Assembly: GCF_000621125.1 (NCBI RefSeq)
Contig: NZ_JHZC01000019.1
Location: forward strand, 1-64,000
Direction: 5' to 3'
Source of the DNA: Maribacter antarcticus DSM 21422
GTDB lineage: Bacteria > Bacteroidota > Bacteroidia > Flavobacteriales > Flavobacteriaceae
DNA length: 64,000 nucleotides
Shown: piece by piece, positions 4,855 to 7,644 of the stretch
Position numbering within the stretch: the stretch's first letter is position 1
Layout of the letters: every line of letters begins with the position of its first letter
Translations under genes and position numbers: made by a program
Notes under the pieces: generated by a model
Seen by the model: the letters and a program-made list of their open reading frames with translations, nothing else
Told to the model about the DNA's origin: nothing
Database searches by the model: none

Positions 4855-5137
4855 AGATTTTAAGTAATAGCATGTAGAATTTTTGCATAAGGTTAAATTA
4901 GGGAAATTCTAGCGGAAAAAAGCTAGCGTATGATTCAAGTTTTGTTTCTTAATTAGGTTAAATTTACAATCACAAATAAAATATAAAGTATTGGTAATCA
5001 GCAGTTAATTAGTTTAAGAGTGTATTTCATCGATAGTTGACAAATAAAGCGTTAAGACGTAAATTTCAATCGGTTAAAAAGATAATTTAGAATAATTCTA
5101 TAGAGGTCAGTAGTTAGTTATTTATTATTTTTCATTG
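4855..5137. other. Gene-free AT-rich spacer
   Basis: The stretch 4633-5137 between the giant gene and the IS1595 remnant has no reading frame that looks coding on either strand. Apart from the hairpin at 4827-4854 I see nothing I can name. It probably contains the promoter of the giant gene and the outer end of the decayed insertion sequence, but no clear terminal inverted repeat is visible. Confidence 0.5.
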
Positions 5138-5510
5138 TTATATTTTATCACTGCTTACCATTCTAGTGATCAGGTTATTGAAAATTGTTGATTTACTTTG
5201 TGAGCGCTTTATTCTAAAACAGAATTCATTAAAGCACCTATTTAGGTCATGATTACTAACCCAAGAATAGGTAGTTCTTATCCAAGATTTAACTTTATGT
5301 ATCATAGTATGAAGCGCCTTGAAGTTCGATCCTTTATTACTTTCTATCTGTTTTATATCTTAGGTTTTTGTATAGGTCTGTACCCTCTCCATTTGTCGGT
5401 CGTTACCTTGGCTTCTCGACTTATGTAGCCGATAAATATATAGTGTAATGATTCAGCGGAGAAGTCTTCTATTTTTATAGCGTATCCTACCTCAGCACTT
5501 AACCATCAAA
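5138..5510 (-). pseudogene. IS1595-family transposase remnant (C-terminal part, broken)
   Basis: Translating the minus strand gives two stretches that join into the C-terminal part of an IS1595-type transposase. The first (about 5482 down to 5365) contains YAIKIEDFSAES and KVTTDKWRGYRP. The second (about 5364 down to 5138) contains FKALHTMIH, SWIRTTYSWV and FNEFCFRI. A stop codon near 5365 separates them in the same frame, and the N-terminal half is missing or unrecognisable. The element is therefore dead. It lies directly downstream of the ice-binding gene on the same strand. Family assignment rests on recalled transposase patterns, and the upper boundary is approximate. Confidence 0.75.
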
Positions 5511-5643
5511 TGGTCTTGCAACAAAAAACGGACGCGAGGCGATTATTTACAGGATAGGCATAGATTAATGCCTGAGGCCGTTGATAGACAAGGGATGATT
5601 TGTGATTTGGAGGTACACCTTATGATGAGGCAAAAAGTATCTC

Positions 5644-6483
5644 TTAGTTCATTTTCACCCTGTATGTAGCACTTCTATTCATAATGACGGTTCTAACTCG
5701 ATTATTAAAAACCATAGCTGAAGAAATAGTAATTGCTCCATTTGTAGAAAGTTTTCTGCCCTCTAGAGATGTACCTGTTCCTGAGCTAATGGCTCCGCCA
5801 TGGGAAAGAAATGTTCCTTTTATATCTGCGCCAGTACCTACACTAATTGCACCAGTGGCGACTCCGGCTCCGCCAATCCAAAAAACATTACAACGCTTCG
5901 CTCCATTAATTAAACTAATTTTTGATAGTGCCGCTATTGAAAATGCCCCTGCAAACTTAAAAATAAATATTGCGTCGACATCATTTTGACCGTCTAAGGT
6001 GATATTTCCTACTAAAGATCCTGCTGCCCCTATATAATAAACCCCTGCATTTAGCGTTTCTCCACTTCCAAAAGCTGGTGTATGCCCAGTTACCGTATTT
6101 GGTAAATTCATAAGTGCAGTATACCCGTTATCTAAATCTATTGCTGCTTTTGCTGAAACTGCATCTTCATTATAAAAATATCCGTCCCTATGAGTTGAAG
6201 GTAAAAAACCAGATATGAGCCCCAAATTTGTCCCAATGTCACCAACCATTTCAGATATACCAGCATTTGATACAGCTCCAACGCTAGTAAAAAGAACAAA
6301 TTTACCTGCACTTCCTAAAACATCAACAATAGGGGAAGGACTACAATTAACTGCGCTAAATTTGGTCGTAGTGCTAATACCTGAAAATGGTTTTACCCTA
6401 GCATCAGCTCTGGTATAACTTTCAAAAGAAAATAATAATATTATCGGGGTAGTTGTTAAATTAAAGAATAAATTTTTGTTCAT
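5644..6483 (-). CDS. Ice-binding protein (DUF3494 family)
   Basis: The protein has 279 residues. It starts with a signal peptide (about 1-27, ending TRADA) and then one DUF3494/ice-binding domain from about residue 55 to 262. Typical features are the VLGSAGKFVLFTS start, GDIGTN, the GVYYIGAA segment, DAIFIFKF and the repetitive beta-helical SVGTGADIKGTFLSHGGAISSG region. Family members bind ice, inhibiting recrystallisation or holding cells in brine channels; here this is inferred from homology. The C-terminus ends 18 residues after the domain with a short basic tail and no type IX sorting domain, so it is either freely secreted or truncated. It sits between remnants of two unrelated transposases, about 90 bp past the IS3 remnant, which suggests acquisition by transfer. 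Confidence 0.9.
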   Translation of the reverse strand: MNKNLFFNLTTTPIILLFSFESYTRADARVKPFSGISTTTKFSAVNCSPSPIVDVLGSAGKFVLFTSVGAVSNAGISEMVGDIGTNLGLISGFLPSTHRDGYFYNEDAVSAKAAIDLDNGYTALMNLPNTVTGHTPAFGSGETLNAGVYYIGAAGSLVGNITLDGQNDVDAIFIFKFAGAFSIAALSKISLINGAKRCNVFWIGGAGVATGAISVGTGADIKGTFLSHGGAISSGTGTSLEGRKLSTNGAITISSAMVFNNRVRTVIMNRSATYRVKMN

Positions 6484-6569
6484 GTTTATTAGTTATTAAG
6501 CTCTACCGATTTGTATAATAATAGTACAATACTCCCAATCTGTAGGTCAGTTAAAATGTATTAATTAGT

Positions 6570-7079
6570 TTATTTTGATGCTATTTTGTTCGTCCCATAA
6601 AGTTGATTTGGTGGTGCTTTTCCGATTTTAATGTACCTTCTTTTTGTGTTATAGAACTCACTATATTCATTGACCAGCTGATATAGGTCAAGACCTCCAT
6701 TGGGCGGGTTTAGATAGATTTTTTCATACGTAATGGATTTCCGGAAGCGTTCAATATAAATATTGTCCAAAGCTCTTCCTTTGCCGTCCATTGATATTTG
6801 AATTTCGTGGTTCTTCAGTACGTCTATGTATTGGGTATGGGTATACTGAGATCCCTGATCGGAGTTGTGTATTTCCGGAGCTACGTATCGGGCTATGGTA
6901 TCTTCCAGTAGTTCTTTACACCACTCTTTATCCATCGAATTTGAAACGCTATAGTTCAGTATTTTTCTACTGTACACATCGATTATCGCATTCATATACA
7001 TAAACCCGCGTAGCACGGGACTATAAGTAATATTTGTATTTGTGAGGTCGTAGATGAAGCCGCACCAAAATTTCCGCAA
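6570..7079 (-). pseudogene. Truncated IS3-family transposase (OrfB, rve integrase core)
   Basis: The 169-residue frame is the C-terminal integrase core of an IS3-family OrfB: GFMYMNAIIDVYSR, HNSDQGSQYT (second catalytic Asp, about residue 74), ISMDGKGRALDNIYIERF (catalytic Glu, about 110) and the YLNPPNGGLDLYQ tail. At the first catalytic Asp position, usually TDITY, it reads TNITY, so one active-site acid is lost. OrfA and the N-terminal half of OrfB are missing; the first codons run out of frame over the end of the interrupted secreted-protein gene. The element cannot move itself. Its 3' end faces the ice-binding gene start 86 bp away, and the stretch after the stop could be the IS end. Confidence 0.85.
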
Positions 7080-7483
7080 AAATCATCTCCATTACTATTG
7101 GATTCAAAATAGTGATGGAGATTTGTGGATTGATATGCTTTGGTAGCCTCACTGTTCCAATTGGCAGCATTACTTGAACCTACAATTTGCGTTCCATTTC
7201 GCCATATATGCTTACCGCCGTGCCCACCTTGCCCAACCCTAGGCATTTCTTGCGCGGAAAGAACTACGAACGTATTGTAAATGGCCTCATCGATTTTAAC
7301 GAAATCCAAAGTTGCCGCATCCGAAAGATTACTTTGATTGTCAGCCCAGTTAAAGGTAACACCGGAAGATATTCCCTGTGCGTTAATATCCATACTGATA
7401 ATGAAAAATGTGAAAACAAAAAATAGGCACGAAAGAAACGTATGTTTTTTGTTAAGGATTAGTTGTAAAGTGGAGTTTTGCAT
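7068..7483 (-). pseudogene. N-terminal fragment of a secreted protein cut by the IS3 remnant
   Basis: The frame starts at 7483 with a clear signal peptide (hydrophobic FFVFTFFII, cleavage likely after DINA) and encodes about 130 residues of a mature exported protein, including VGQGGHGGKHIWRNG and NLHHYFESNSNGDDF. I do not recognise a family. Beyond about 7085-7068 the sequence changes into IS3 transposase in another frame, so the remaining frame to 6992 is not native. No matching 3' part is seen on the other side of the IS remnant, so this is a truncated gene rather than a simple insertion. The junction position is approximate. Confidence 0.6.
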
Positions 7484-7644
7484 AGCTAAACAATTTGGAG
7501 ATATTTTAAACCTCGATTTAGAATGTATTGATTCTTAGGTTAAGTTTCTAGAAGTAAATAAAAGTTAAAGACGACTTTGCGAAATAATTTACATCATGTA
7601 CGATGAAAATTGAAAATTCTGTTGACCAATAACTTAATAGCATC

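Follow-up and report, generated by a model that had tools for sequence, protein, structure and literature searches.

A small ice-binding protein gene of Maribacter antarcticus DSM 21422, found in the window (the whole stretch of 64,000 nucleotides that was analysed), probably represents a miniature of a two-domain surface protein, produced by loss of internal parts, exchanged within the genus and now sitting at a surface-protein gene broken by deletion, with insertion sequences (IS) not needed as its carriers. Among polar microbes, ice-binding genes serve as a standard example of how gene transfer brings adaptation. In the proposed course of events, the parent would be a large two-domain surface protein like G012:C45, whose second ice-binding domain lives on in the gene after two in-frame losses, as the collinearity of three retained pieces suggests. 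Of domain 1 little would be left and of the stalk nothing, while the start, with its signal peptide, and a C-terminal tail of 15 residues would have been kept. Synonymous divergence and patchiness show that the miniature was later exchanged, in one direction or the other, between distant members of the genus, and it would now lie where a surface-protein gene broke by deletion into an IS3 copy. The IS3 and IS1595 remnants would mark a rearrangement-prone site, carriage of the gene by them being possible.

The fuller claim is that a giant ice adhesin was miniaturised by internal deletion, losing one domain and the stalk and keeping its signal peptide and an undescribed tail, and that the product moved between species and changes its protein sequence, relative to synonymous change, at about three times the rate of related domains in large proteins; we put it forward tentatively, with a confidence just short of even. 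If true, it runs counter to the building-block idea, found in the accessible text of PMC9957290, in which single-domain genes are suggested as the units from which larger ones were assembled. A traceable parent with readable leftover pieces makes the direction of domain change testable, here from a tethered ice adhesin to a free ice-binding protein.

The open reading frame is intact, encodes 279 amino acids on the minus strand and matches PF11999 (DUF3494 / Ice_binding) with an E-value of 9e-33 and 114.1 bits against a cut-off of 28.7 in a profile search, covering profile positions 5–207 of 208. An AlphaFold model built from two input sequences was poor (pLDDT 47.8, better at residues 120–250) and was used for fold matching alone; the 31 PDB entries that it matched with E <= 0.001 are ice-binding or antifreeze proteins. 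Judged by its family and by a start that resembles a signal peptide by eye, the product would be a small secreted DUF3494 protein, exported and binding ice outside the cell. It falls outside the NCBIfam equivalog NF045625 (IBP_CFB), scoring 40.2 bits against a curated cut-off of 400.

Reading along the minus strand, the beginning of a surface-protein gene is followed by an IS3-family remnant, 41 bp, the ice-binding gene, about 147 bp, an IS1595-family remnant and a giant Calx-beta gene that extends to the contig start (Table 1). The original prediction, which placed the DUF3494 gene between a dead IS1595-family and a truncated IS3-family remnant on one strand, was borne out, both remnants lying on the strand of the ice-binding gene with their 5′ parts absent. 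A gene flanked by IS remnants and a cut-off neighbour is no chance pattern.

Table 1. Features at and around the ice-binding gene, in window coordinates
Feature	Position	Strand	Basis
Separate giant Calx-beta protein, 13 matched stretches, running off the contig start	1..4632	-	Relatives' loci; profile search
Stretch upstream of the giant gene, resembling the region upstream of the surface-protein gene (L076:6711-6814)	4939..5045	-	BLAST; direct repeat D1
IS1595-family remnant: 3′ transposase part with frameshift, one end near 5100	5093..5484	-	Genome self-match; PF12762
Spacer of about 147 bp, ice-binding gene to IS1595 homology	5485..5631	.	Self-genome search; Pfam
Miniature DUF3494 ice-binding gene, 279 aa	5644..6483	-	PF11999, 114 bits; piecewise match to L161; nearest PDB entry 5uyt
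C-terminal tail of 15 residues (residues 265-279)	5647..5691	-	Match to L161
Second-domain-type ice-binding domain (residues ~46-263)	5695..6348	-	PF11999; match to L161
Signal-peptide-like start (by eye) and domain-1 remnant (residues ~1-45)	6349..6483	-	Piecewise match to L161
AT-rich leader common to the window gene and the sister copy in G012:C70, where homology stops	6484..6502	-	Sequence comparison
IS3-family remnant: 3′ part of orfB and right end, 5′ part absent	6525..7033	-	rve profile; DNA matches within the genome; NCBIfam
Junction of the surface-protein gene with the IS3 interior; surface-protein frame lost	7018..7050	-	Alignment with L076 and L055
First 145 codons of the broken large surface-protein gene	7049..7483	-	Comparison with relatives

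The parentage of the gene is most readily read from its sister copy in G012:C70: three collinear pieces of the 993-residue two-domain protein G012:C45 account for 291 of its 293 residues. Its residues 1–45 match C45 residues 1–45 at the DNA level (104/135 positions), the first 129 nt of the gene being 78% identical to the start of the C45 gene (E 5e-25) and 74% identical to the G1126 start. By blastp, residues 47–277 match C45 residues 234–464, which form the second ice-binding domain (54%), and residues 279–293 match C45 residues 979–993 (80%; the tail piece alone, E 0.002). The window copy follows the same plan, is about 14 residues shorter near the start and has a tail that has diverged further. 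The short form thus has the first stretch of domain 1 (‘LG...SFE...’) and then the inter-domain linker, and since such a leftover precedes the linker, the order points to loss from a two-domain gene and not to gain.

The company of the domain is in keeping with this. Each of the best ten rows after the window gene in the domain search belongs to an open frame, the lengths ranging from 646 to 4,355 residues; among the two-domain examples retrieved, frame length ranges from 645 to 1,585 residues, a contig end truncating one of the frames. One 4,355-residue frame (L156:2680-15744, G000:C1) holds a single domain-2-type ice-binding domain with 64% identity to the window gene over residues 43–262. 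A focused tree built from 27 domains places the miniatures inside the domain-2 clade (99/97), below forks supported at 95/95, 94/97, 90/94 and 98/96, and the domain-2 rows of G582 and G594 elsewhere; a topology with the miniatures outside the eleven two-domain-type domain-2 rows was not rejected (AU p 0.132). Support for the two miniatures as a pair is 77/50 in the focused analysis and 98/93 in the broad tree described below. The miniature domain is nearest to domain 2 of G060, G873, G1334, G1126 and G1462, and the start and tail best match G012:C45; as the domain and the ends point to different proteins, there may have been more than one recombination. The tail, common on proteins of the genus, could have been added separately. 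Short repeats at the presumed deletion points in the two-domain genes were not above those of random pairs. A literature search covering few subscription journals returned no account of a two-domain ice-binding gene giving rise to a single-domain one by loss.

The last 15 residues of the window protein, TVIMNRSATYRVKMN, represent an eroded version of a motif that reads about TVITNRRITYR[VI]K-x-N. With a 26-residue query from C45, matches (E up to 0.1) were obtained in 31 of the 36 genus genomes. A regular expression without a stop condition matched in 21 of the 30 loci returned, each time exactly 15 residues before a stop, and in none of the other nine, while a looser expression requiring the stop yielded 25 different tails over the genus loci examined. 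The tail sits at the C-termini of large proteins in the genus (e.g. L163–L192). It was absent from 85 loci outside the genus, which had been chosen for their ice-binding matches, and found no match on plasmids; the tail of L161, the one full protein scanned, had no Pfam or NCBIfam match, and a text search for ‘NRRITYR’ in literature covering few subscription journals returned no paper. A role as a C-terminal address signal is possible, and if the tail serves in export or anchoring, it would be a new C-terminal address label in this group.

Horizontal transfer of the window ice-binding gene is well supported. Transfer of DUF3494 genes is already established in the literature, as far as its accessible text goes, and the spread by transfer expected in the original prediction is upheld here by patchy presence, by a third-position identity far above that of core genes and by a rejected tree topology. 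Of the 36 genus genomes, two have PF11999: the window's genome with three occurrences and G012 with seven. The sister gene in G012:C70 lies at a different genomic place, and homology is confined to the gene, about 20 bp upstream and 12 bp downstream. The two copies agree in 63% of residues and have a third-position identity of 0.77, with dN 0.24 and dS 0.34, whereas four core genes of the same two genomes have third-position identities of 0.44–0.48, dS being saturated in three of the four and 2.0 in the fourth. Between the window's genome and its sister species G008, the values for four core genes are 0.56, 0.42, 0.58 and 0.55. Composition does not explain the gap, because the third-position identity expected from it by chance is just 0.35 for the ice-binding pair and 0.26–0.32 for three core genes (the window copy taken against itself).

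A core tree built from three genes and 20 of the 36 genomes places the window's genome and G012 on opposite sides of a branch with 100/99 support and pairs the former with G008 (100/100). The broad tree took in 81 of 86 domains, five at <=185 bits, including the G012:C114 domain, being left out and domains with fewer than 150 profile positions having been dropped earlier; in it, rows of other genera and families fall among those of the genus. Comparison of the DUF3494 tree with the species tree, proposed beforehand as a check, ended in disagreement: a single clade of the five domain-2-type genus rows, picked after the tree was known, was rejected (AU p 0.0024). Patchy presence, a gene tree at odds with the species tree and synonymous divergence below that of core genes were thus all found. 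Atypical GC content was considered as a sign of foreignness and rejected, the gene being ordinary (0.375 overall against 0.371 for the window).

G012 has an estimated contamination of 5%, and the composition of the 29-kb contig bearing the sister copy fits the genome without proving membership. The setting there is different and mobile-looking, with tyrosine recombinase, Abi_2 and DUF6119 genes within 7 kb of the sister gene (L063:9676-14975). No match to the ice-binding gene was found in 50,697 phage records, nor any in a pattern-limited scan of viral contigs; its plasmid relatives are distant (best 42%), and a GTDB pattern scan returned one locus, a MAG at 45%.

The site can be compared with relatives. 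A secreted-protein gene cut short had been predicted, and the stretch concerned proved to encode the N-terminal 145 residues of a large surface protein, in which Big_9 and Calx-beta domains are recognized by profile search in G008. This gene lies downstream of a photolyase-related gene in four of the 35 other genus genomes. In G008 and G005 a single frame continues across the break, with 1,315 residues up to where the contig stops in the former and a complete 888 residues in the latter; G032 has a 1,990-residue frame across the break after a frame slip near residue 75, and in G029 the frame stops at 1,022 residues. By BLAST, none of the four has the ice-binding gene or IS sequence of the window at that site, and PF11999 is absent anywhere in these genomes, G008 being 85% complete. 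The empty site with a surface gene running past the break, which had been named in advance as support for insertion, is therefore present in all four. About 15 bp at the junction (7018–7033) can be aligned to both the surface-protein gene and IS3, and the surface gene looks as though a deletion broke it and fused what was left to the interior of an IS3 copy.

The interval between the photolyase-related gene and a ClpP-like gene (below 7645 in the window; L067–L086 in relatives) holds different giant surface-protein genes or none, depending on the species, among the matches listed, and looks like a hot spot. Similar upstream stretches, at 4939–5045 and 7535–7570, precede both giant surface-protein genes and are perhaps a shared control region.

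Both IS are remnants. In place of an intact orfA and orfB between two terminal repeats, the IS3 element has the 3′ part of orfB and one end. Its reading frame (6570–7079, minus strand) matches rve at 8.7e-18, and its NCBIfam IS3 score of 129.6 bits lies under the cut-off of 160, as expected of a fragment. Since DNA homology with the genome's other IS3 fragments ceases at 6525, the IS end lies 41 bp from the ice-binding start codon; the closeness that had been predicted holds, but the figure of about 90 bp does not apply to the IS end, the transposase stop codon being the feature at 87 bp. In the IS1595 element, a 3′ part with a frameshift and one end stand in place of an intact DDE transposase between two terminal repeats. 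Two further places in its own genome match it at 87% and 70% identity, and a third match is short; the element reached 30.0 bits against a cut-off of 27 for PF12762 in a hand-made read-through translation across one frameshift. The spacer between the ice-binding gene and this remnant has no match in its own genome beyond the IS1595 part; its plus strand is open for about 50 codons, and the translation matches no Pfam family.

Because only about 20 bp of leader is common to the window gene and the G012 copy, the native promoter seems to be missing, and the gene may rely on borrowed transcription, with the IS3 end as one possible source and read-through from the broken surface gene's promoter, about 1 kb upstream, as the other. 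One weak match to a Bacteroidetes consensus (8 of 10 positions) falls inside IS3 at 6755–6732, in a scan that has little power because it found no match upstream of the two giant genes. On the other hand, sigma-70-like sites are no more frequent than in shuffled sequence (12 found, 13.4 expected), and a terminator-like site at 7005–7019 on the same strand, itself within chance (1 found, 1.4 expected), would hinder read-through. Borrowed transcription is a serious possibility that we nonetheless place somewhat on the doubtful side.

The part of the original prediction in which the flanking IS brought the gene here found no support. Such carriage, for example by one-ended or composite transposition of which the remnants are what is left, would fit the position of both remnants beside the gene on one strand, and the accessible text of PMC9957290, in which transposases adjoin ice-binding genes in Arctic MAGs, counts in its favour. 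IS3 looks like an incomer itself, being found in just two of the 36 genus genomes, in the other as one 112-bp match (up to 17 candidates were scored per genome). Yet the two IS are unrelated and keep one end each, their outer ends missing or rearranged, where a composite transposon would have two copies of one IS at its ends; the 15-kb stretch around the sister copy in G012:C70 has no BLAST match to either, the homology there amounting to the gene and about 20 bp; and the IS3 fragment has six further matches in the window's genome, which makes such remnants common background. We consider carriage by the IS unlikely. Nothing found requires them, and the remnants may be bystanders rather than a vehicle, though they may also have delivered the gene along a path that has left no trace, or contributed a promoter.

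The pace of protein change raises the further question of decay, in which relaxed constraint after a useless transfer would account for it. Selection was assessed on ten domain-2-type sequences (217 codons, GY94/F3x4), our own code, with one ratio, reproducing the IQ-TREE likelihood (-5110.33). When the two miniature tips, which were picked as foreground after the pairwise values were known, were given an omega of their own, it came to 0.588 against 0.215 elsewhere, and lnL rose from -5110.33 to -5099.41 (p ~3e-6 by hand). A value as high as 0.59 would be in line with decay, and the window copy is some 14 residues shorter near its start than the G012 copy; fixing the miniature omega at 1, however, fits worse (lnL -5102.64, 2 x 3.23 units, p ~0.01 by hand), both copies are open from start to tail, and about 7% of copies would remain open after 100 random substitutions. 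Decay is improbable, a little more so than carriage by the IS. Being constrained, the miniatures are probably functional, yet faster-changing.

Least probable is that the single-domain form is ancestral and two-domain proteins arose from such building blocks when a second domain and a stalk were gained, a course that the accessible text of PMC9957290 suggests for DUF3494 genes generally and for which the AU result leaves room, since the leftover of domain 1 and linker in the short form makes sense as a residue of loss, the miniatures are nested in the domain-2 clade by bootstrap and the best ten rows after the window gene lie in long frames.

The proposed derivation by loss would set the window protein apart from the ice-binding proteins that it otherwise resembles. 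Its best solved relative, both by sequence (E 1.6e-65, both domains aligning) and by predicted fold, is 5uyt, which we take to be IBPv, a two-domain DUF3494 protein of an Antarctic Flavobacteriaceae member. That protein has two tandem domains, whereas the window protein has one domain, a remnant of domain 1 and the 15-residue tail. FfIBP (4nu2) and 3wp9, presumably ColAFP, are single-domain DUF3494 proteins and share with it the possession of one ice-binding domain, but they are far from it in sequence (PDB E-values of 4e-6 and 5e-6), and its one-domain form would differ from theirs in origin, with the IBP_CFB equivalog score far under its cut-off. The large two-domain ice-binding proteins of the G012:C45, G1126, G060 and G873 kind match the miniature in the start, in domain 2 and, for C45, in the tail, domain 1 and the stalk being gone from it. 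The deletion-born fusion genes described in the accessible text of the preprint PMC12803068 are likewise a new gene form made by deletion; here, the deletion would have occurred within one gene for an exported protein and would have been followed by transfer.
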